64,000 nt of DNA from Actinotalea lenta (GTDB lineage Bacteria > Actinomycetota > Actinomycetes > Actinomycetales > Cellulomonadaceae): contig NZ_JAUQYP010000001.1 in the NCBI RefSeq assembly GCF_030586465.1, positions 1,755,834 to 1,819,833 of the forward strand. Direction: 5' to 3'. Every line of letters starts with the position of its first letter. Positions within the stretch are counted from its first letter, which is position 1. Shown piece by piece: positions 14,450 to 25,538 of the stretch. The translations under genes and the position numbers were made by a program. Under the pieces are notes generated by a model. That model was not told the origin of the DNA. It searched no databases and saw only the letters and a program-made list of their open reading frames with translations.

Positions 14450-16078
14450 ATGATGACCGTGGATGCCGCGACCCGCCCGACCTCCGGCTGGGGAACGGTC
14501 GCCGATACCTTCGCCGACCGGGACCCCGGTCGCCCGGTCGCCAAGGCATCCCTCCTCGACGCCGTCACGGACCTGCGCGCGGCCGTCGCCGAGACCCGGT
14601 TCCCGCTGCCCCTGGACGGGGTGGCTCGCGCGCGCCGGCAGCGAGCCGAGCTGCTCGATCAGCTGGACGACCATCTGCTGCCCCGGCTGCGCGAGCTGAG
14701 CGCTCCCGGCCTCGTCGTGGTGGCCGGGTCGACAGGGGCGGGCAAGTCGACGCTGGTGAACTCGCTCGTGCGCGAGGAGGTCAGCCAGGCGGGGGTGCTG
14801 CGGCCCACCACGCGGCGGCCGATGCTCGTGCACCACCCCGCCGACGCCGAGCTGCTCGCCGGGCATCCGCTGCTCGCCCACATGGACGCCGTGGCGCGAG
14901 ACGCGGTGCCGCGCGGGGTGGCCCTCGTCGACGCGCCGGACCTGGACTCGCTGCTCGAGGAGAACCGGGAGACGGCGCGACGGCTGCTGGACGCCGCCGA
15001 CCTGTGGCTGTTCTGCACGACCGCGGCCCGGTACGGCGACGCCCTGCCCTGGCAGGTGCTCGACCTGGCGGCCGAACGCGGGGCCGCGATGGCGATGGTG
15101 CTCAACCGCGTCCCGCGGGACGCCGTGATCGCGGTCCGCTCGGACCTGCTCGCGCGGCTGGGCGAGCACGGCCTGTCGACGGTTCCGCTGTTCCTGGTCC
15201 CGGACGTGGGACCGCACGAGGGCCTGCTGCCCGAGTCCTCGATCGCCCCGGTGCGCCGCTGGCTGACCGTACTGGCCGGGGCGGACCGCGCCCAGGGGGT
15301 CATCGCCCGGACCCAACGTGGTGCCCTGGCGGCGTTGCGTCCCCGGGTGGACGGGCTGGCCGACGCCGTGCAGGCCCAGGTCGACGCGCGCGAGGCGCTG
15401 GAGGCCGAGGTCGGGGTGCTGCTCGCCGGCCCTGCTGAGCGTGCCGCGGCGGAGGTCGCCCAGGGGGCGGTCGCGCGGGGCCCGGTGCGCGGCGCGTGGG
15501 CGGCGCACGCGGGCCGCGGCGGTGCCCTCGGCACGGCGTGGACGTCACGTCGGGCCGGCGAGGCGCGGGCGAGCGCGCTGCGTGCCGTGGGCGAGGAGGT
15601 GCTGGGTGCGGCGCGGGTCGCCCTGGCCGCGGCCCGCCGGGCGGGTGAGACGGCTGTTGCCGCGGGGGTCGGAGACCGGCTGGCGGCCGTGGAGCTCCCG
15701 GACCTCGCGCCGGGCGTCGCGGAGCCCGACGCCGACGCGCAGGCGTGGCTCGACGGCGCCGCGAGCCGGCTGCGCGGCGCGGATCACCGCGGCGTGGCGC
15801 GCCTGCTGCGCCAGGCCGGCGAGACCGGAGCCGCTGTGGTGCTGGCCGCGGCGGCGCTCGGTCTGGGTGCCTCCCGCGTGCTGCTGGAGCGCGCGATCGG
15901 GGGCGAGGCGGCCCGTGCGCTGGCCGACGCCACGGCGGCCGACCTGTCCGAGCGGATGCGGGCCGAGGTGCTCGCCGCCGGAGCGCGGGTGCGGGCCGGC
16001 CTGGACCAGCCCGACCTGGCTCCGGACGCAGCGTCGCGGCTCCGGCTGCGCCGCGCCGTGCTCAAGGAGTGGACATGA
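14450..16078 (+). CDS. Dynamin-like GTPase, pair 1 subunit A
   Basis: A 542-aa large GTPase. P-loop GSTGAGKST is at about residues 93-101, switch region VLRPTTRRP, and G3-like DAPDLDS. The usual G4 (N/TKxD) is replaced by LNRV, so guanine recognition is atypical. A single hydrophobic segment near residues 458-478 may anchor it. GGAAGG lies just upstream; ATG 14450, ATG 14453 and GTG 14459 are all possible starts, the last having the best spacing. Its stop overlaps the next ATG. Streptomyces DynA/DynB, adjacent dynamin-like proteins that stabilise FtsZ rings, have the same paired layout; membrane remodelling is therefore inferred. A close paralogue is at 22039. Confidence 0.85.
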   Translation: MMTVDAATRPTSGWGTVADTFADRDPGRPVAKASLLDAVTDLRAAVAETRFPLPLDGVARARRQRAELLDQLDDHLLPRLRELSAPGLVVVAGSTGAGKSTLVNSLVREEVSQAGVLRPTTRRPMLVHHPADAELLAGHPLLAHMDAVARDAVPRGVALVDAPDLDSLLEENRETARRLLDAADLWLFCTTAARYGDALPWQVLDLAAERGAAMAMVLNRVPRDAVIAVRSDLLARLGEHGLSTVPLFLVPDVGPHEGLLPESSIAPVRRWLTVLAGADRAQGVIARTQRGALAALRPRVDGLADAVQAQVDAREALEAEVGVLLAGPAERAAAEVAQGAVARGPVRGAWAAHAGRGGALGTAWTSRRAGEARASALRAVGEEVLGAARVALAAARRAGETAVAAGVGDRLAAVELPDLAPGVAEPDADAQAWLDGAASRLRGADHRGVARLLRQAGETGAAVVLAAAALGLGASRVLLERAIGGEAARALADATAADLSERMRAEVLAAGARVRAGLDQPDLAPDAASRLRLRRAVLKEWT

Positions 16079-17571
16079 CCGACGGCGCGCGCATCCCGCC
16101 CGACATGGCCGCTGGCCGCGGCGGGGCCCGGACGGCGGCGCTGATCGAACGCGTGGCGCGCATGGAGGCCGCCCTCGAGCGTGCCGGTGACCGGGTGCCG
16201 GCCGACGCGCGTGAGCGTGTGGCGGCCCTGCTCGAGGGCGTGCGCGAGCGGCTGTCCCTCGGGGTGGACCACACGGTGGTCGCGCTGGTCGGGGGCACGG
16301 GTTCGGGCAAGTCGAGCCTGTTCAACGCGCTGTCCGGCCTCGACTTCGCGAAGGTCGGTGTGCGGCGCCCCACCTCCTCGGCGGTGACCGCGTGTGTCTG
16401 GGCGCACGACGCCTCGGCCCTCCTGGACTGGCTCGGCGTGGACCGGGAGAGGCGCATCGAGCGCGAGTCCGAGCTGGACGGCGACACCCAGGCCGACCTC
16501 CGCGGGTTGGTGCTGCTGGACGTTCCCGACCACGACTCGGTCGAGGCCGCGCACCGTGGCGTGGTCGACAGGCTCCTGCCGCAGGCCGACCTGTTGTGCT
16601 GGGTGGTGGACCCGCAGAAGTACGCCGACGACGCCCTGCACTCCGGCTACCTGCGCCACCTCGCGGGGCATGAGGGAACCATGCTGGTGGTGCTCAACCA
16701 GGTCGACACGGTGCCCGAGCACGCGCGGGCTGAGCTGCTGGCCGACGTCGGTCGCCTGGTGCGCGCGGACGGGCTCACCGACGTGCGCACGGTCGCGGTG
16801 TCCGCGGCGACCGGTGAGGGCCTGGCGGCGGTGCGGGAGCTGCTGGCGACGGTCGTCGCCGAGCACGGCCTCGCGGAGCTGCGGGCCACAGCCGAGCTGC
16901 ACGACGCCGCCACCCAGCTGGCCGCGACGGTGGGCCCCGGGGAGATCGCGCCTCCCGTGGCCCGCGCCGTCGACGCTCTGCTCGAGGCGGCCGGCGTCCC
17001 TGGGGAGGTTGAGGCCGTGTCGCGCGGTGTGCCCGGCGGCCTGGAGCCCTCCACTCGAGCCGCGGTGCTGGGGCCGGTCCAGGCGGACCGCGTGGCACTC
17101 GTGCGCGACGCGTGGCTCGAGGAGGTCGGCGGCTCGCTCGCCCCGGCCTGGCGCGGCACGCTGGCCGAGGCCATCGACGACGAGGCCGCGGTGGTGCGGG
17201 CGGTGGACCGGGCGCTCGGCGCGGTGGTGGTTCCGGATCCGCCGCCGCTCGGCGTGGGGCGGTTCGTGGGCTGGGCGCTCGGGGCGGTGGCGGTGGCTGC
17301 CGGTGCGCTCGCGGTGCTGCTCGCGCCGTGGTGGTGGGCGCTTGCCACGGCGTGCGCCGTCGTCGCCGGTCTGGCCCCGTGGCTCTCGGCGCGGCGTCGG
17401 CGGGCGGTGGCCCGTTCGGCCGGGACACGGCTGCTGTCCCAGGCGAGGTCGGCGGTGACCGCGGTGGTCGAGGAGTCGCTCGCCCGGCCGACCCGGCAGG
17501 TGCTGGACGATCACCGCGCCGTCCGGGAGGCGTCCACAGCCCCGGGGCCGGAAGCACTGTCCACCGACTGA
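16075..17571 (+). CDS. Dynamin-like GTPase, pair 1 subunit B (YfjP-like)
   Basis: A 498-aa GTPase whose ATG overlaps the previous stop (ATGA). P-loop GGTGSGKSS at residues about 73-81, DVPDHDS G3 motif, conserved DPQKYADDALH segment and a near-canonical NQVD G4. Two hydrophobic helices near residues 395-440 (VGWALGAVAVAAGALAVLL; WWWALATACAVVAGLAPWL) make it membrane-embedded, with a basic C-terminal tail. It is paralogous to the protein at 23898, sharing DPQKYAD and the following NQVD region. A heteromeric A-B complex at the membrane is inferred from the conserved coupling. Members are often annotated simply as GTPase or YfjP. Confidence 0.85.
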   Translation: MTDGARIPPDMAAGRGGARTAALIERVARMEAALERAGDRVPADARERVAALLEGVRERLSLGVDHTVVALVGGTGSGKSSLFNALSGLDFAKVGVRRPTSSAVTACVWAHDASALLDWLGVDRERRIERESELDGDTQADLRGLVLLDVPDHDSVEAAHRGVVDRLLPQADLLCWVVDPQKYADDALHSGYLRHLAGHEGTMLVVLNQVDTVPEHARAELLADVGRLVRADGLTDVRTVAVSAATGEGLAAVRELLATVVAEHGLAELRATAELHDAATQLAATVGPGEIAPPVARAVDALLEAAGVPGEVEAVSRGVPGGLEPSTRAAVLGPVQADRVALVRDAWLEEVGGSLAPAWRGTLAEAIDDEAAVVRAVDRALGAVVVPDPPPLGVGRFVGWALGAVAVAAGALAVLLAPWWWALATACAVVAGLAPWLSARRRRAVARSAGTRLLSQARSAVTAVVEESLARPTRQVLDDHRAVREASTAPGPEALSTD

Positions 17572-17651
17572 GGGGCCCGTTGCCGCGCGCAGCGCGGCGG
17601 CCGGACACAGTGGTGCCGAGGTCGGACGGTCCGGCCGGGAGGCAGGCGACG

Positions 17652-18167
17652 ATGCGCAAGGCGGCGACGATCACGGTGACCGGGTGGGCCGGCAGCACCC
17701 CGAGGGAGGTGTCCGGCGGCGGCGTCCCGTTCACGTCGTTCCGGATCCCGGTGACCGAGCGGCGCTTCGACCAGCGCACCCAGGCGTGGGGTGACGGACC
17801 CACCGAGTGGTACACGGTCAAGGCGTTCCGAGACCTGGCGCTCAACGTGGCGGAGTCGATCCGCAAGGGCGACCCGGTGGTCGTGACGGGGCGGTTGCGC
17901 ACGGAGGTGTGGCAGTCGGACAAGGGACCGCAGCCGGGATTCGTCATCGACGCCGACGCGGTGGGACACGACCTCGCGTGGGGAGCGAGCTCCTTCCGGC
18001 GGCGCGTCCATCGCTCCGACGCGTCCGAAGACCCTCAGGAGAACGCCGGGCAGGCGGGGCCGCCGGCGCGCGACGACGGGATGCAGGACGCGGCGGGCCC
18101 GACCGCCGACCCGTGGGCGACCCCGGCAGCCGACCCCGACGAGGCCGGTGTCCCGTGCACGCCGTAG
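17652..18167 (+). CDS. ssb: Single-stranded DNA-binding protein, short-tailed
   Basis: A 171-aa OB-fold protein; residues 1-110 match bacterial SSB (ITVTGWAGS, VPFTSFRIPVTER, WYTVKAFRDLALNV, KGDPVVVTGRL). Residues 110-171 are a hydrophilic tail that lacks the acidic DDDIPF ending of the main replicative SSB and ends VPCTP. It is therefore probably an accessory (SsbB-type) protein rather than the essential one. The gene stands 80 bases after the GTPase pair and 45 before ettA, in the same direction. Confidence 0.85.
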   Translation: MRKAATITVTGWAGSTPREVSGGGVPFTSFRIPVTERRFDQRTQAWGDGPTEWYTVKAFRDLALNVAESIRKGDPVVVTGRLRTEVWQSDKGPQPGFVIDADAVGHDLAWGASSFRRRVHRSDASEDPQENAGQAGPPARDDGMQDAAGPTADPWATPAADPDEAGVPCTP

Positions 18168-18212
18168 GCTGTCGGGTCGGAACGACCCCGCGACGACTGG
18201 AGCGAGCCCCGA

Positions 18213-19895
18213 GTGGCCGAGTTCATCTACACCATGCAGAAGGCGCGCAAGGCGCACGGCGACAAGCTGATCCTCGACGACGTCACGATGGCCTTCTACC
18301 CCGGAGCCAAGATCGGCATGGTCGGGCCCAACGGCGCCGGCAAGTCGACCATCCTGAAGATCATGGCCGGCCTGGACCAGCCGTCGAACGGTGAGGCGCG
18401 GCTGTCCCCGGGCTACACCGTCGGCATCCTCCAGCAGGAACCACCGCTCGACGAGTCCAAGACGGTGCTCGGCAACGTCGAGGACGGGGTCCGGGGGATC
18501 AAGACCAAGCTGGACCGGTTCAACCAGATCAGCGAGGAGATGGCCGACCCGGACGCGGACTACGACGCGCTGCTGGCGGAGATGGGCGAGCTCCAGGAGG
18601 CGCTCGACCACGCGAACGCCTGGGACCTGGACGCCCAGCTCGAGCAGGCGATGGACGCCCTCCAGCTGCCGCCGGGCGACGCGGACGTCACCGTGCTCTC
18701 GGGCGGGGAGCGACGCCGCGTCGCGCTGTGCAAGCTGCTGCTGGAGAAGCCCGACCTCCTGCTGCTGGACGAGCCGACCAACCACCTCGACGCCGAGTCC
18801 GTGCAGTGGCTCGAGCAGCACCTCGCCCAGTACGAGGGTGCCGTCATCGCGGTCACCCACGACCGGTACTTCCTGGACCACGTCGCGCAGTGGATCGCCG
18901 AGGTCGACCGCGGCCGGCTCTACCCCTACGAGGGCAACTACTCCACGTACCTGGAGAAGAAGCGAGCGCGGCTCGAGGTGCAGGGCCGCAAGGACGCCAA
19001 GCTCGCCAAGCGGCTGGCCGACGAGCTCGACTGGGTGCGGCAGTCCGCCAAGGGCCGCCAGGCCAAGTCCAAGGCGCGCCTGCAGCGCTACGAGGAGATG
19101 GCGGCCGAGGCGGAGCGCACCAGGAAGCTCGACTTCGAGGAGATCCAGATCCCGCCGGGCCCGCGCCTGGGCACCACGGTCATCGAGGCGAAGGACCTGA
19201 AGAAGGGCTTCGGGGACCGGACCCTGATCGACGGGCTGTCGTTCTCGCTGCCCCGCAACGGGATCGTCGGTGTCATCGGGCCGAACGGCGTCGGCAAGAC
19301 GACGCTGTTCAAGACGATCGTGGGGCTCGAGCCGCTGGACGGCGGGGACCTGAAGATCGGTGAGACGGTCGACATCTCCTACGTCGACCAGTCCCGCGGC
19401 GGCCTGGACGCCAAGAAGACGCTCTGGGAGGTCGTCTCCGGCGGCCACGACTACATCCGGGTCGGGAACGTCGAGATGCCGTCGCGTGCCTACGTCGCGG
19501 CGTTCGGCTTCAAGGGTCCCGACCAGCAGAAGCCCGCGGGCGTGCTGTCCGGCGGGGAGCGCAACCGGCTGAACCTCGCGCTGACCCTCAAGGAGGGCGG
19601 CAACGTCCTGCTCCTCGACGAGCCCACGAACGACCTCGACGTCGAGACGCTGGGGTCGCTCGAGAACGCGCTGCTCGAGTTCCCGGGATGCGCGGTCGTG
19701 GTCTCCCACGACCGGTGGTTCCTGGACCGCGTCGCGACGCACATCCTGGCCTACGAGGGCACCGACGAGGACCCGGCGGCCTGGTACTGGTTCGAGGGGA
19801 ACTTCGCGTCGTACGAGGAGAACAAGATCCAGCGGCTGGGTATCGAGGCCGCCCGCCCGCACCGCGTGACGTACCGCAAGCTCACGCGCGACTGA
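18213..19895 (+). CDS. ettA: ABC-F translation factor EttA
   Basis: A 560-aa soluble ABC-F protein that binds the ribosomal E site and gates entry to elongation according to the ATP/ADP ratio. Two ATPase cassettes are visible: Walker A GPNGAGKST and GPNGVGKTT, signatures LSGGERRR and LSGGERNR, Walker B followed by DEPTNHLD and DEPTNDLD. Between them is the P-site tRNA-interacting linker rich in Arg/Lys (KRLADELDWVRQSAKGRQAK). No membrane segment. GTG at 18213 has GGAGCGAG upstream. Length and motifs are typical of EttA (about 555-560 aa). Confidence 0.95.
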   Translation: MAEFIYTMQKARKAHGDKLILDDVTMAFYPGAKIGMVGPNGAGKSTILKIMAGLDQPSNGEARLSPGYTVGILQQEPPLDESKTVLGNVEDGVRGIKTKLDRFNQISEEMADPDADYDALLAEMGELQEALDHANAWDLDAQLEQAMDALQLPPGDADVTVLSGGERRRVALCKLLLEKPDLLLLDEPTNHLDAESVQWLEQHLAQYEGAVIAVTHDRYFLDHVAQWIAEVDRGRLYPYEGNYSTYLEKKRARLEVQGRKDAKLAKRLADELDWVRQSAKGRQAKSKARLQRYEEMAAEAERTRKLDFEEIQIPPGPRLGTTVIEAKDLKKGFGDRTLIDGLSFSLPRNGIVGVIGPNGVGKTTLFKTIVGLEPLDGGDLKIGETVDISYVDQSRGGLDAKKTLWEVVSGGHDYIRVGNVEMPSRAYVAAFGFKGPDQQKPAGVLSGGERNRLNLALTLKEGGNVLLLDEPTNDLDVETLGSLENALLEFPGCAVVVSHDRWFLDRVATHILAYEGTDEDPAAWYWFEGNFASYEENKIQRLGIEAARPHRVTYRKLTRD

Positions 19896-19910
19896 GCGAC
19901 CCGCACGTGG

Positions 19911-19949
19911 CCGGAAGATCCGTCACGGGAAGCGTGACGGATCTTCCGG
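19911..19949. terminator. Perfect 17-bp stem terminator between ettA and the DUF4232 gene
   Basis: CCGGAAGATCCGTCACG, loop GGAAG, CGTGACGGATCTTCCGG: every base of the 17-base arms pairs. It sits between the convergent stops at 19895 and 19956 and so can serve both strands. There is no U-run, which is common for strong GC-rich actinobacterial terminators. Confidence 0.85.
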
Positions 19950-19955
19950 TGGCGG

Positions 19956-21365
19956 TCAGGGGGCCTGGCAGCCGACCTGCAGCCCGGTGACCCCGGCGGC
20001 CGGGACCGAGACGGGGCCGTCAGCCCGGCAGGCGTAGGCGCCGTCGCCGTACAGCGGGCTGGCCCCGGTGACGGTGTACGAGCCGGCCGGCACCGTCAGG
20101 CGGAACGAGCCGTCCGAAGCGGCCGCCGCCCGGTAGGTCCGACCGGTGGCGGTGTCGACGAGGCGGACCGCGCCGAACAGTCCGCGCGGGGGCCCCGGCG
20201 CCGGCCCGCCGACCAGCTCGAGCACACCTGCGACGCGGGCGCCGCCGCCCACGGCAGTGACCTGCACGGTCCCGTCCGCGGTCACGGCGAACGGCGCGAG
20301 CAGCGACCACCGCACCGTCAGTGGCCCGGACCGGGCGCCGGTCGGCACGGCGAGCCGCATCTCGAACCGCACGGTCGCCCCGGCGGGGACGCTCGAGCCG
20401 GCTGCGTCGCAGGCCAGCCCGTTGGAGGTGGAGACGTCGGCGGCCCCGGTCGCCTGCTCGACGTAGCCGGGGCACCGGGTCAGCGGGATGGCGTGGTCCG
20501 TCGGGTTGGTGACGGCAGCGACGTAGACCAGGGTCGAGCCGGCGAGCGCGTGCTCGGGCAGCTCGAGCGCGACGGTCAGCGCGCTGAGGGGGTCGGTGGC
20601 CGAGGCTCCCCCGGGGGACTCGACGTAGAACGGCGTGAGCTTCACGCCGCAGGTCACGTCGATCCCGCCGGGCACCGCCACGGTGACGTCCCCGCCGCCC
20701 GGCAGGGTCGCGGTCAGGTGGTGGTAGAGGTCCGGCGACGCGGTGCCGCCGGGGTTCGCGTCGCACATGGCGTCCGTCTCCACCCCGAGCAGGGTCTGGT
20801 CACCCGGCTGCATCACGGCGCTCCCGGCCGTGGGGAACCAGCTGCCGTCGGTGGCGAGCACGTCGGGACGTCCCTGCTCCGTCGCGGTGACGGCGGGGTA
20901 GCCGGACAGCACGCACGGTGTCGAGCCGGTGTTGGTGAACCTCAGCGTGGTCAGGAGGTGGCCACCGGCACCGTCCGTGCCACCCACGGCGGCCGCGACC
21001 TCGGACGCCGTGCAGGCACGGGCGTCGCCCCCGGCGTCCGGCGGACGGTAGGCGGGCGCGGTGGCGCCCGTCCACGGGATGGCGCCGGTGAGGTCGACAC
21101 CGTCCGGCGCGGCCGGACCTGACGGCGCGGGGCTTGTCGGGTCAGTGGCCGTCGCGGGCGGTTGCGCGCGCCACGGTGCGTCAAGAGCCACGAAGGCGCC
21201 CGCCATGGCCGTGCCGACCACGAGCACGCTCGCGGTCGCGATCACGGAGGCGCGCGAGGCCCGGCGTCGCCGGACCAGCTCGGCGACGTCCGCCAGCTCC
21301 ACGCCGGTGGTTCGCGGCGCCGAGGCGTGCAACGCCTCGGCGACCCGGTCCTCAGTGCCCGTCAT
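19956..21365 (-). CDS. Membrane-anchored DUF4232-containing protein next to a sigma factor
   Basis: A 469-aa single-pass protein. Residues 1-35 are cytoplasmic and basic (ELVRRRRASRAS), followed by a membrane helix about 38-62 (VIATASVLVVGTAMAGAFVAL), a Thr/Pro/Ala linker and two extracytoplasmic beta domains of the DUF4232 type (TNTGSTPCVLSGYPAV). The C-terminal 60 residues resemble a carboxypeptidase-regulatory-like beta fold (GRTYRAAAASDGSFRLTVPAGSYTVTG). Its start overlaps the sigma-factor stop by 14 bases, the usual position for a membrane partner of a SigE-family sigma factor. No zinc-binding anti-sigma motif is seen. Confidence 0.8.
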   Translation of the reverse strand: MTGTEDRVAEALHASAPRTTGVELADVAELVRRRRASRASVIATASVLVVGTAMAGAFVALDAPWRAQPPATATDPTSPAPSGPAAPDGVDLTGAIPWTGATAPAYRPPDAGGDARACTASEVAAAVGGTDGAGGHLLTTLRFTNTGSTPCVLSGYPAVTATEQGRPDVLATDGSWFPTAGSAVMQPGDQTLLGVETDAMCDANPGGTASPDLYHHLTATLPGGGDVTVAVPGGIDVTCGVKLTPFYVESPGGASATDPLSALTVALELPEHALAGSTLVYVAAVTNPTDHAIPLTRCPGYVEQATGAADVSTSNGLACDAAGSSVPAGATVRFEMRLAVPTGARSGPLTVRWSLLAPFAVTADGTVQVTAVGGGARVAGVLELVGGPAPGPPRGLFGAVRLVDTATGRTYRAAAASDGSFRLTVPAGSYTVTGASPLYGDGAYACRADGPVSVPAAGVTGLQVGCQAP

Positions 21366-21885
21366 GGCTGACCTCCTCGTCCCAGATCCCGTGCAGTCGA
21401 GCGCTGGCCCGCAGGCTGGCCAGCGCCTTGGCGGACTGGCTCTTCACCGTGCCGACCGAGCACCCCAGCGCCTGGGCGGTCTGCGCCTCGGTGAGATCGT
21501 CCAGGTAGCGCAGCACCACCACGGCCCGCTGACGGCGCGGCAGGGTCCGCAGCGCGTCGAGCATCGAGGCCCGCAGGTCCACCGCGGCGAACATGTCGGG
21601 TGAGGTGGCTCCGTGCGGCGGCCGGTCCGGGAGCTCGGCGGCCGGCAGCTCACCGTGCCAGCGTCGCCGTCGCCAGGTCAGGAAGGTGGACATCATCACC
21701 CGGCGGACGTAGGCCTCCGGTGCGTCCTTGCGTGTCACCCGGTCCCAGCGCTCCCAGGTCTTGGCGAGCGCGACCTGGACCAGGTCCTGGGCGCTCGCCT
21801 CGTTGCCGGTCAGCAACCACGCGCTGCGCACGAGCGCAGGGGAGCGCTCGGCGACGAAGTCCGCGAACCCGTCCGGTGCCTGCAT
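21352..21885 (-). CDS. SigE-family ECF RNA polymerase sigma factor
   Basis: A 177-aa ECF sigma factor of the actinobacterial SigE (SigE50) family. Region 2: FADFVAERSPALVRSAWLLTGN and DLVQVALAKTWERWDRV; region 4: LPRRQRAVVVLRYLDDLTEAQTAQALGCSVGTVKSQSAKAL. ATG at 21885 has GGAAGGGG seven bases upstream. It is co-transcribed with the membrane-anchored DUF4232 protein, which may hold or regulate it. It directs RNA polymerase to a stress-type regulon; its target promoters cannot be read from this window. Confidence 0.92.
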   Translation of the reverse strand: MQAPDGFADFVAERSPALVRSAWLLTGNEASAQDLVQVALAKTWERWDRVTRKDAPEAYVRRVMMSTFLTWRRRRWHGELPAAELPDRPPHGATSPDMFAAVDLRASMLDALRTLPRRQRAVVVLRYLDDLTEAQTAQALGCSVGTVKSQSAKALASLRASARLHGIWDEEVSHDGH

Positions 21886-22038
21886 GGTCCCCTTCCCGTT
21901 CCGTCGCTGCCCGCCCGTGCGGGCGCTGACCACTATGACGACCTGGACGGTGTGAAGGGTTGCCTCGCCCGCGGCGCGCCGCCGGTGGGCGGCGCCGTTG
22001 CCAGCACTCCGGGGTCGGAACCGGCATGATCGGGGGAT

Positions 22039-23907
22039 ATGTCGCACGCGTCGTACGACCCCCGAGCGGGCTCCGGTGCGCCCGGCGGCGATCCGACGCC
22101 CCCCGGGGACCGGACGGCGGCCCGGCCGACGGAGCCCGGCCCGGGCGGTGCCGATCTCGCCGCCGGCCTCGCCGAGGTGCGCACGGCCGTGGCCGCTCTG
22201 CGGCTGCCCCTCGAGGTCGCCGGCGCGGCTCAGGCCAGGGCCGAGGCTGCGCGGCTGACCGCTCAGCTGGACGACCACCTGCTGCCGCGGGTGCGCCAGA
22301 TGGGCGCACCGCTGCTGGCCGTGGTCGGCGGGTCCACCGGGGCCGGGAAGTCCACGTTGGTGAACTCGCTGGTCGGCGCCGTGGTCAGCCCGGCCGGGGT
22401 GCTGCGGCCCACCACCCGCTCGCCCGTGCTGGTGCACCACCCCGACGACGCCGCGTGGTTCGCCGGGGACAGGGTCCTGCCCGGTCTGGCGCGGTGGCGC
22501 GGGGAGGGGGAGGGCCCGCGCAGCCTGCGCCTGGTCGCCCATGCGGCCGTGCCCCGCGGCCTGGCGCTGCTCGACGCACCCGACATCGACTCCGTGGTGG
22601 CGGACAACCGCGAGCTCGGGGCGCAGCTCCTGGGAGCCGCCGACCTGTGGGTGTTCTGCACGACTGCGGCGCGCTACGCAGACGCCGTCCCGTGGGAGCT
22701 GCTCGCCCAGGCCGCGGCCCGGCGCGCGGCCGTGGGCGTCGTCCTGGACCGTCTGGAGGCCGCCGAACGCGACGCCGTGTCCGCGGACCTGGGACGGATG
22801 ATGGCCGAGCACGGTCTGGTCGGGGCCCGGCTGCTCGCGGTGCCCGAGGCGCGGCTGGCCGGCGGCCTGCTGCCCGACGCCGCGGCCGCGCCGGTGCGGG
22901 ACTGGCTCCAGGGCCTGGTGGCCGACGCGGACGCCCGCGACCTGCTGGTGCGCACCACGGTGCACGGCGCGGTGGCCGACCTGGTGGCCCGAGTGCCTGC
23001 GCTGGCCGACGCGGCCGACGCGCAGGTCGCCCACGCCGGGTGGTTGGCGCAGGTCGCGGTCGACGCCTACGCCGAGGCGACCCGCACGGTCACCGAGGTC
23101 GCCTCGGACGGCACCATGCTGCGCGGCGAGGTGCTCGCGCGGTGGCAGGAGTTCATCGGCACGGGCGAGCTGCTGCGCGCGCTCGAGGCCAAGGTGAGCA
23201 GCTGGCGGGACCGGATCACCGCCGCGCTGCGTGGCCGGCGTGCGCCCGAGCCCGTCACCGCGGCCATCGGCGCCGGCCTGGTGGACGTGGTGGCAGATGC
23301 GGCGGACCGGGCCGCCGAGCGGGTGTGGACGACCTGGCACGCCGACCCGGCAGGACGGGTCCTGCTGGACCGGCTGCGGCTCTCGCGCTCCTCGGCCGAC
23401 CTGCGCGACCGGGTGGCCGCCGAGGTGCGGGCCTGGCAGGGCGGCGTGCTCGAGCTGGTGGGGACCGAGGGAGCGGACCGCCGGGTCACCGCCCGCGTCC
23501 TCTCGTTCGGCGTCAACGGGCTCGGCGCGGCCCTGATGATCCTGATCTTCGCCCAGACGGGCGGCCTGACCGGGGCCGAGGTGGGGGTGGCCGGGGGCGC
23601 CGCGGTGCTCGCCCAGCGACTGCTCGAGGCCATCTTCGGCGACGACGCCGTGCGTCGCCTCACCCGGGTCGCCGAGGCCGACCTCGCAGCCCGTGTCGAC
23701 CGTGTGCTGCGAGACGAGGCCGACCGGACGCGAGCCCCGCTGGACGCCCTGGACGTGCGCACCGACGGCAGCGCTCTGCGGGCCGCGCTGGCCCTGGTCA
23801 GGGTGCCGGACGTCCCCACGCCGCCGGCGCCGCCCTCCCGCCGTGAACGCCGGGAGGCTCGTCCCGAGCGCGGCCTTCGAGCGTGGTGGAGGCGACTGTG
23901 GTCCTGA
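22039..23907 (+). CDS. Dynamin-like GTPase, pair 2 subunit A
   Basis: A 622-aa paralogue of the protein at 14450. P-loop GGSTGAGKST near residue 97, then VLRPTTRSPVLVHHP, and DAPDIDS. LWVFCTTAARYADAVPWELL matches LWLFCTTAARYGDALPWQVL in pair 1. G4 is again degenerate (LDRL). A Pro/Gly-rich N-terminal 35 residues are unique to this copy. Hydrophobic segments near residues 490-525 (LGAALMILIFAQTGGL; GVAGGAAVLAQRLL) and a basic Arg/Trp-rich C-terminus (ERGLRAWWRRLWS) indicate membrane association. ATG at 22039 follows GGGGG. It is divergent from the sigma factor. Confidence 0.88.
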   Translation: MSHASYDPRAGSGAPGGDPTPPGDRTAARPTEPGPGGADLAAGLAEVRTAVAALRLPLEVAGAAQARAEAARLTAQLDDHLLPRVRQMGAPLLAVVGGSTGAGKSTLVNSLVGAVVSPAGVLRPTTRSPVLVHHPDDAAWFAGDRVLPGLARWRGEGEGPRSLRLVAHAAVPRGLALLDAPDIDSVVADNRELGAQLLGAADLWVFCTTAARYADAVPWELLAQAAARRAAVGVVLDRLEAAERDAVSADLGRMMAEHGLVGARLLAVPEARLAGGLLPDAAAAPVRDWLQGLVADADARDLLVRTTVHGAVADLVARVPALADAADAQVAHAGWLAQVAVDAYAEATRTVTEVASDGTMLRGEVLARWQEFIGTGELLRALEAKVSSWRDRITAALRGRRAPEPVTAAIGAGLVDVVADAADRAAERVWTTWHADPAGRVLLDRLRLSRSSADLRDRVAAEVRAWQGGVLELVGTEGADRRVTARVLSFGVNGLGAALMILIFAQTGGLTGAEVGVAGGAAVLAQRLLEAIFGDDAVRRLTRVAEADLAARVDRVLRDEADRTRAPLDALDVRTDGSALRAALALVRVPDVPTPPAPPSRRERREARPERGLRAWWRRLWS

Positions 23908-25538
23908 TCGCGGACCGGTTCGCCGCCCTCGACGATGCCGTGCAGCAGGCCGTGGCGGCGGGACCGGAGGTGCTCCCCGGCCCGCTCGTGGAGCAGGTGC
24001 GGGCGCTCGAGCACCGCGCCGGGGAGCGGCTGCGCCTGTCCGAACGCCACACCGTGGTCGCGGTGGCCGGCGCCACCGGCTCGGGGAAGTCCTCGCTGGT
24101 CAACGCCCTGGTGGGGGAGGAGGTCGCCACCGTCGACGTGCTGCGCCCCACGACGGCCCACGCCATGGCCGTCGTGCACGGGGTGGCCGACGCGGGTCCA
24201 CTGCTCGACTGGCTGGAGATCGACGAGCGCGTGGGTCGCCCCGACGCGCGTCCGGGCGGCCTGGTGCTCGTCGACATGCCCGACCACGACTCGGTACGCA
24301 CGTCCCACCGACTCGAGGCGGAGCGGCTGATCGGACTGGTCGACCTCATGGTGTGGGTGCTGGACCCGCAGAAGTACGCCGACGCCGCCGTGCACGAGCG
24401 CTACCTGCGCACTCTCGCCGCGTACCGTGACGTGCTGCTCGTGGTCCTCAACCAGGTCGACCGGCTCGAGCCGGACCAGGCCGAGGTGACCCTGGGCGAC
24501 GTGCGCCGGCTGCTCGCCGAGGACGGCCTGGACGGGGTCCGGGTGCTGCCCGTCTCCGCCCGTACGGGGGCCGGGGTGGCCGACCTGCGCAACACGCTCG
24601 CGGACGTCGCATTCCGGCACGAGGCGCACCGCGCCCGCCTCGAGGCGGACGTCATGTCCCTGGCGGACCGGGTCGTGGCCTGCTGCGGAACCGACGACGT
24701 GGCGGTTCCGCGGGCGGACCGCGCGCTCGTCGACGCCCTCGCGCTCGCCGCCAAGGTTCCCACCGTCGTCGAGGCGGCGGCCGGGTCCTACCGGCTCTCG
24801 GCCCGGCTGGCCACGGGCTGGCCGCCGACCCGCTGGCTCGCGCGGCTGCGCGCCGACCCGCTGCATGCCATGCACCTCGCGCCCGCCCGGCACCCCCGCG
24901 GCACTGAACAGGGCACCGGCCGCGGCGTCGATCGGGAGACCGATGAAGCGGTGGCGCGCACCTCGCTGCCGCCTGCCGGCCCGGCCGAGCGCGCGCACGC
25001 GGCCGGTGCGGTCCGCGACTGGCGCGACCGCGCCGTCGCGGCGCTGCCCGACTCGTGGGCCCTGGCGGCGCGGGGCGCGGACCTCGACCTGGCAGACGAG
25101 CTGGACCACGCGGTCGCGTCGACCCCCGTGGTGGCCGGCCGGACCCCGCTGTGGTGGCGGGCCGTGGGCGCCCTCCAGTGGCTCGTCCTGGTGCTCGCGA
25201 TCGTCGGCGTGGGCTGGCTCGCCGCGCTGGCGGGGATGGGCGCGTTACGGCTGCCCGTCCCGGACCCGCCCCGGTGGGGTGCGCTGCCGGTGCCCACGGC
25301 ACTCGCGCTGGGCGGGGCGCTCCTGGGACTGCTGCTCGCGGGCGTGGCGCGGCTCGCCGCCGGGGTCGGCGCGCGGCGCGCGGGCGGCCGGGCGGCAGCG
25401 CGCCTGCACGACGCGGTGGCACGGGTCGCCGACGCGCGGGTGGTGGCACCGGTCGCCGACGTCGTCGCCCGGCACCAGGCTTGCCGCGCAGCCGCCACGC
25501 GGGCCGCTGCACGGGCACGACGACGGGAGGGCCGATGA
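23898..25538 (+). CDS. Dynamin-like GTPase, pair 2 subunit B (YfjP-like)
   Basis: A 546-aa paralogue of the protein at 16075. I chose GTG at 23898 because GGAGG ends five bases upstream; GTG at 23883 and 23886 are in-frame alternatives. P-loop GATGSGKSS near residue 58, DMPDHDS, DPQKYADAAVHERYL, NQVD. A linker of about 120 residues with RGTEQGTGRGVDRETDE separates the GTPase domain from two membrane helices (residues about 420-446 and 458-485). It overlaps subunit A by ten bases and the next gene by four, so the pair is translated coupled. Confidence 0.85.
   Translation: MVLIADRFAALDDAVQQAVAAGPEVLPGPLVEQVRALEHRAGERLRLSERHTVVAVAGATGSGKSSLVNALVGEEVATVDVLRPTTAHAMAVVHGVADAGPLLDWLEIDERVGRPDARPGGLVLVDMPDHDSVRTSHRLEAERLIGLVDLMVWVLDPQKYADAAVHERYLRTLAAYRDVLLVVLNQVDRLEPDQAEVTLGDVRRLLAEDGLDGVRVLPVSARTGAGVADLRNTLADVAFRHEAHRARLEADVMSLADRVVACCGTDDVAVPRADRALVDALALAAKVPTVVEAAAGSYRLSARLATGWPPTRWLARLRADPLHAMHLAPARHPRGTEQGTGRGVDRETDEAVARTSLPPAGPAERAHAAGAVRDWRDRAVAALPDSWALAARGADLDLADELDHAVASTPVVAGRTPLWWRAVGALQWLVLVLAIVGVGWLAALAGMGALRLPVPDPPRWGALPVPTALALGGALLGLLLAGVARLAAGVGARRAGGRAAARLHDAVARVADARVVAPVADVVARHQACRAAATRAAARARRREGR

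Follow-up and report, generated by a model that had tools for sequence, protein, structure and literature searches.

It is an open question for what reason dynamins of bacteria occur as pairs and which task falls to each half, and in Actinotalea lenta it is posed by two pairs of dynamin-like genes in one cell. The genes are found in a stretch of 64,000 nucleotides (contig NZ_JAUQYP010000001.1, positions 1,755,834 to 1,819,833), which is called the window here. Pair 1 consists of A1 and B1, and pair 2 of A2 and B2 (Table 1). Are the two pairs copies of one another, and do they do the same work? The two-pair arrangement is real, well conserved and of a known kind, and it is older and otherwise related than the locally duplicated module proposed in a first-pass annotation of this DNA. 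In our preferred reading, to which we assign a probability of roughly 0.55, these are two heterotypic pairs of the DynA/DynB type from two old lineages, pair 1 serving at the division ring as a scaffold anchored through B and pair 2 acting more directly in membrane tethering or remodelling.

Two related gene pairs with dynamin-type folds

Both pairs are arranged A then B on the same strand, with 4.5 kb between them. Their coordinates and the overlaps of stop and start codons reported earlier were verified: the A1 stop and B1 start share ATGA, and A2 and B2 overlap by 10 bases, with GTG as the B2 start codon. Third-position GC was 92-93% in all four genes, which is the pattern of real genes. 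Whole-genome profile searches of the 3.3 Mb genome found two A and two B genes, all in the window, and no further A or B gene, the next match of the B profile having an E-value of 4e-5. Two other frames (G000:C1:2715772 and G000:C1:1957916) exceeded the Dynamin_N cut-off only when neighboring in-frame matches were summed, and these are perhaps other GTPases rather than A or B proteins.

A1 and A2 share 47% identity over 375 aa (E = 1e-73), and B1 and B2 share 43% over 279 aa (E = 1e-52). The local alignment scores of 804 and 572 far exceeded the maxima of 156 and 111 over 100 shuffles, confirming that the two A proteins belong to one family and the two B proteins to another. The A and B proteins are also related to each other, with scores of 221-286 against shuffle maxima of 103-123. 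The shared motifs listed previously were found again, namely LRPTT, DAPDLDS/DAPDIDS and FCTTAARY in A and DPQKYAD and NQVD in B. Dynamin_N scored above Pfam's curated cut-off of 27 bits in all four proteins (33.1, 32.7, 30.1 and 35.0 bits), with a match that covered the P-loop stretch only. No NCBIfam family exceeded its cut-off among the best 25 of up to 47 matches, and searches of the PDB sequences with B1 and A1 returned only weak matches to GTPases, P-loop proteins or unrelated entries.

All four proteins carry a P-loop at G1 (GSTGAGKST, GGTGSGKSS or GATGSGKSS) and RPT at G2. The strict dynamin motifs are DxPG at G3 and (N/T)KxD at G4, and DxPD in place of DxPG is unusual for a hydrolysing GTPase. 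Here both A and B proteins read DxPD at G3. At G4 the B proteins have NQVD and the A proteins LNRV or LDRL; an NKxD-type motif is indeed absent from A, as had been noted. B1 retains the P-loop, DxPD and NQVD. When the five commonest variants of each group of relatives were compared, RPT and DxPD were present in nearly all the variants listed, in the A and B families alike. The G4 of the A family was mostly LDRV or LNRV followed by P, including all six A proteins of the Streptomyces-like family f31, and an NQVD-like G4 was kept in the B family. A few A proteins of the pair-2 lineage (type 2; the pair-1 lineage is type 1) carried DRVD or DRLD. Since the f31 proteins also show DxPD at G3 and DRVP at the G4 of A, the departures from the strict motifs mark the whole family, and the degenerate G4 of A appears to be largely a family trait. 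In family f17 (L144, L145 and L167), an extremely diverged A was found beside a recognizable B, with scores of 125-160 compared to about 370-780 for most A proteins, and these A proteins look as if they were shedding their GTPase role.

Structure models were made for A2 (55 sequences, mean predicted local distance difference test score, pLDDT, of 86.3) and B2 (57 sequences, mean pLDDT of 91.8). A Foldseek search of the PDB with A2 placed BDLP first, and all 47 matches at E ≤ 0.001 were dynamin-type or EHD entries. For B2, the best 50 of the 280 matches at E ≤ 0.001 were inspected; the Campylobacter dynamin pair, BDLP and IniA came first, and Toc34, MnmE and Era entries followed at lower ranks. 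The Foldseek probability was 1.00 for the dynamin matches of both models, yet the global template modelling (TM) scores were low (0.15-0.37 over the best 50 matches of A2, normalized by query length), as expected for domains turned against each other, so that the fold matches fall short of proving the whole dynamin architecture. The models predict a GTPase head and a helical stalk for A2 and B2, with dynamins as the nearest folds. The initial description of the four proteins as dynamin-like GTPases was therefore borne out by models for A2 and B2, and it extends to A1 and B1 by homology.

Two lineages and their origin

At a threshold of E ≤ 1e-30, B matches were found in 58 of 61 genomes of the family Cellulomonadaceae, in 91 of 119 genomes sampled from the order and in 61 of 128 sampled from the class. 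Fifty of the 61 Cellulomonadaceae genomes had two B loci (the three matches of G236 being counted as two), lying about 6-14 kb apart on one contig in 47 and on separate contigs in three. Eight had one B locus, always of the pair-1 type and adjoining SSB (single-stranded DNA-binding protein) and EttA genes; one of these, G284, also shows A2 near a contig end. No B match was found in the remaining three (G238, G255 and G270), all of genus g113. A scan of named genomes, covering the best 80 of 553 confirmed places, showed mostly the order A1-B1-SSB-EttA-A2-B2 at Cellulomonas, Actinotalea and Promicromonospora-type loci. Nocardioides and Kineosporia loci had a single, more A2/B2-like pair, mostly upstream of SSB, and Actinomyces and Georgenia loci had solely A1/B1-like genes at that place. 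Eight genomes of f3 (taken as Actinomycetaceae on account of its Actinomyces and Georgenia rows) gave two matches, hundreds of kilobases apart or on separate contigs, and in f11 two B matches were close together in one of eight genomes (G071). Some genomes of f13 (Kineosporiaceae; L135-L140) and of f29 (L148-L153, L173 and L174) likewise had a second pair, unlinked and placed elsewhere in the tree.

By gene order, pair 1 is the positional counterpart of the A-B-SSB-EttA pair that is widespread in actinobacteria and the only pair in many of them, including Streptomyces-like genomes. Pair 2 represents a second lineage, placed here behind ettA and mostly unlinked in other families. Cellulomonadaceae and a few related families have both lineages side by side.

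Phylogenetic trees were consistent with this arrangement. The joined A and B tree contained 105 of 108 rows, of which four were duplicates, after three f17 rows had been dropped. In the trees of B, of A and of both joined, pair 2 grouped with the pairs of f6 and f10 and with those f3 and f11 pairs that are unlinked, and pair 1 grouped with SSB-linked f3, f11 and f9 pairs. The type-1 group, f17 included, comprised 33 rows in both single trees with support of 99 and 100, and joined f7 among the SSB-linked pairs of the order with support of 93 in the B tree and 99 in the joined tree. Forcing pairs 1 and 2 of Cellulomonadaceae (26 rows, with L132 of f11) into one clade was rejected by the approximately unbiased test (difference in log likelihood, ΔlnL, of 620, p = 0.0002 under the model used). 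These results place the separation of the two pairs before Cellulomonadaceae arose. The proposal of common A and B families was thus upheld by the phylogeny, and that of a module duplicated at this locus was not.

The tests disagree on where pair 2 came from. It may be an old paralogue, produced by a duplication no later than the base of the order and followed by losses, rather than a horizontal acquisition; we regard this as a serious alternative, though at somewhat less than even odds. With all rows, including the fast type-1 rows, and the LG+G4 model, holding the rows of the order together was not rejected (ΔlnL 20.7, p = 0.289; two f13 second-pair rows were left out), and the second pairs in f13 and f29 also fit an old duplication. 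However, a single clade of the slow SSB-linked and type-2 rows of the order was rejected under LG+C20 (ΔlnL 38.8, p = 0.0018), and type 2 then grouped with the pairs of f32 and f36. This set of 64 of the 105 rows excluded type 1 altogether, as well as 11 rows that were duplicates, had long branches or came from f13 second pairs; it was picked after the result of the first test and is not counted as proof. A more speculative scenario, which we consider rather unlikely as a whole, is that another order contributed a second DynAB pair to an ancestor of several Actinomycetales families. The native SSB-linked pair would then have been freed for hairpin shortening and for a role as division scaffold, in parallel to Streptomyces, the incoming pair would have kept membrane remodelling, and the four proteins would possibly form one mixed system.

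Membrane segments and possible division of tasks

B2 has two separate C-terminal hydrophobic segments, which are helical in the model. B1 has a single hydrophobic stretch of about 48 residues, formed by four overlapping windows and with space for two helices, so that the two membrane helices first described for both B proteins were found as separate segments in B2 only. Six of the 33 type-1 B rows had no hydrophobic segment at the threshold used. Nor is B alone in having membrane segments: A2 carries a hydrophobic hairpin at its C-terminus, and A1 carries one hydrophobic segment. Counted in alignment columns referenced to A2, the hairpin region of A was 46-47 residues long in all 28 type-2 rows, 28-30 residues in 32 of 33 type-1 rows (8 in the other one), and 33-35 residues in all six f31 rows. 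Once two truncated rows are disregarded, the joined tree needs two changes to explain these lengths, and the hairpin was shortened independently in type-1 A and in Streptomyces-like A. The motif RGExLxRW was present in 26 of 28 type-2 rows and in none of the 33 type-1 and six f31 A rows; its loss was more scattered than the hairpin shortening, with eight changes on the tree. Judged from these alignments, there is a clear anatomical difference between A1-type and A2-type proteins.

The two types also differ in evolutionary rate. In comparisons between the same species, type-1 A was faster than type-2 A in 59 of the 66 species pairs of Cellulomonadaceae (median ratio 1.6) and in 32 of the 36 of f3/f11 (median ratio 1.5), whereas the ratios for B were 1.15 (54 of 66) and 0.92 (6 of 36), respectively; the species pairs share branches and are not independent. 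With high ratios for A and ratios near 1 for B, it is chiefly A that has accelerated.

By analogy with the Campylobacter pair (PMC6104087) and Streptomyces DynAB (PMC8748795), as described in the available parts of these reports, A and B of each operon most likely form one complex. B would provide the membrane anchor through its C-terminal helices, together with the better-kept GTP motifs (G1, G2 and the NQVD of G4), and A, with its degenerate G4, would be the partner and modulator of B. With the shortened hairpin of A1, pair 1 would rely more on B1 and, like Streptomyces DynAB, most likely acts as a B-anchored scaffold at the division ring. In pair 2, A2 would add a full hairpin, and the membrane would most likely be tethered or remodelled more directly. 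SsgB and SepF2 are named as partners of Streptomyces DynA and DynB in the text available of two reports (PMC7985256, PMC8748795). The A. lenta genome has one SsgA-family gene and one SepF gene, so the reported contacts with the division ring would be possible. The roles of pairs 1 and 2 may be divided, a hypothesis which the shortened A1-type hairpin fits.

Several points weigh against this reading. Many lineages carry one type only, which argues against a strict division of labor: pair 1 stands alone in seven of the 61 Cellulomonadaceae genomes as assembled, the seven stretches fetched from f6 and f10 showed the second lineage alone, and several other families have only the SSB-linked pair. 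The two lineages may therefore be interchangeable. The contrast between the two types of A in membrane insertion also seems to be a matter of degree, since A1 retains one hydrophobic segment (mean hydropathy 2.01) and at least one segment was found in 10 of 33 type-1 A rows and none in 23, compared to 0 of 28 type-2 A rows without a segment at the same threshold. The joining point of type-1 A is without support in the A-only tree. In addition, the fold class of A1 and B1 is taken from homology, f31 is equated with Streptomyces, and its pair with DynAB, by chaplins, single copy and architecture rather than by accession, and the function of the pairs in Cellulomonadaceae is a prediction from sequence, models and analogy.

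Other explanations of the locus were less convincing. That the pairs serve the DNA or translation functions of SSB and EttA, not membranes, would agree with the frequent presence of both genes beside the SSB-linked pair across families. This is improbable, however, given the C-terminal membrane segments of the B proteins, the match of the folds to membrane-remodelling dynamins, and the unlinked type-2 pairs, beside which the stretches fetched contained no SSB and no EttA gene. If anything, it is harder still to credit that pair 1 is redundant and decaying after a takeover by pair 2; the faster evolution of type-1 A and its shortened hairpin lacking RGExLxRW could be read in this way, but pair 1 is the one retained in the seven single-pair genomes of the family, and B1 keeps its P-loop, DxPD and NQVD. 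A recent local duplication of pair 1 into pair 2 within this lineage, followed by divergence, has very little in its favor beyond the 4.5 kb spacing and the identical strand and gene order, as the one-clade constraint was rejected and both lineages are present, mostly unlinked, in other families.

The second copy had been described as flanking SSB, EttA and a sigma factor, and all three of these lie between the two pairs. A sigma factor similar to that of the window (at least 60 bits) was not found in other Cellulomonadaceae loci among the best 80 of 553, and occurred only in the Nocardioides loci L071 and L080, between SSB and ettA; the extracytoplasmic function (ECF) sigma factor is therefore probably no part of the module. 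The genome has two SSB genes, of which the one in the window is the second and scores lower; its C-terminus ends in VPCTP and lacks the acidic tip that replication SSBs typically have. No conserved neighbors of the unlinked type-2 pairs were found across families. Family-specific neighbors, identified by eye from translations, were a histidyl-tRNA synthetase-like gene in f3 and, in f6, genes resembling leuD and murA, and the largest neighbor clusters listed near these pairs were opposite-strand shadows of A and B.

Table 1. Genes of the two pairs and features between them, with positions in the window.
Feature	Position	Strand	Remark
A1, dynamin-like GTPase, pair 1, 542 aa	14450..16078	+	hydrophobic hairpin shortened to one segment; RGExLxRW absent
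B1, dynamin-like GTPase with C-terminal membrane stretch, pair 1, 498 aa	16075..17571	+	
SSB, second single-stranded DNA-binding protein of the genome	17652..18167	+	start codon inferred
EttA-like ABC-F protein, between the two pairs	18213..19895	+	
DUF4232 protein and ECF sigma factor, between ettA and A2	19956-21939	-	
A2, dynamin-like GTPase, pair 2, 622 aa	22039..23907	+	46-aa hydrophobic hairpin and RGEVLARW motif kept
B2, dynamin-like GTPase, two C-terminal membrane segments, pair 2, 546 aa	23898..25538	+	GTG start inside A2

Comparison with Streptomyces DynAB and other dynamins

Among the papers listed in our literature searches, most of them judged by title and the beginning of the abstract, we recognized no account of two DynAB-type pairs in one genome. 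With two pairs that differ in history and anatomy, the A. lenta genome is a natural setting in which to ask if dynamin pairs of bacteria can divide labor, and its relatives, some of which have both pairs and others just pair 1 or just pair 2, form a natural series for questions of redundancy, partner choice and the need for the hairpin. The place beside ssb and ettA is also the likely genomic address of DynAB in many actinobacteria outside Streptomyces.

Family f31 consists of one genus with genomes of 6-10 Mb. Chaplin matches numbered 6-11 per genome in all six f31 genomes tested (best E about 1e-28 to 1e-29), compared to 4-7 weaker ones in four f29 genomes (best E 2e-8 to 4e-6) and none in four other genomes. 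From these strong matches we infer that f31 is Streptomyces, and that its pair is probably DynAB, listed for S. venezuelae as vnz_12110 (DynA) and vnz_12105 (DynB) in the accessible part of the source (PMC6428758). Each of the 11 f31 genomes listed gave a single B match, in agreement with the earlier statement that Streptomyces has one pair. In the tree f31 grouped with the SSB-linked pairs of f29; its path length was 1.88 to pair 2 and 2.68 to pair 1, whereas synteny favors pair 1 instead.

Among other dynamins, Nostoc BDLP (2j68, 2j69) and Mycobacterium IniA (6j72) were in the first ten structural matches of A2 and B2, but they belong to other families by sequence, with 11-15% identity and global TM-scores of 0.19-0.28. 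The Campylobacter proteins Cj-DLP1 and Cj-DLP2 (PDB 5owv and 5oxf), the top structural match of B2, are likewise a heterotypic pair from one operon, and no second pair is mentioned in the available portion of the report (PMC6104087). They differ from the A. lenta proteins in sequence, with 10-14% identity in the structural alignments. Streptomyces DynA and DynB have the same adjacent A and B genes. DynB has two membrane segments according to the available text (PMC8748795), as has B2, whereas B1 has one 48-residue stretch. The Streptomyces-like pair stands before SSB, in all six loci fetched, with EttA in five of them, like pair 1, and its A protein has a short hairpin like that of A1, in contrast to the long hairpin of A2. 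Finally, the Streptomyces-like genomes have one such pair, whereas the A. lenta genome has two.

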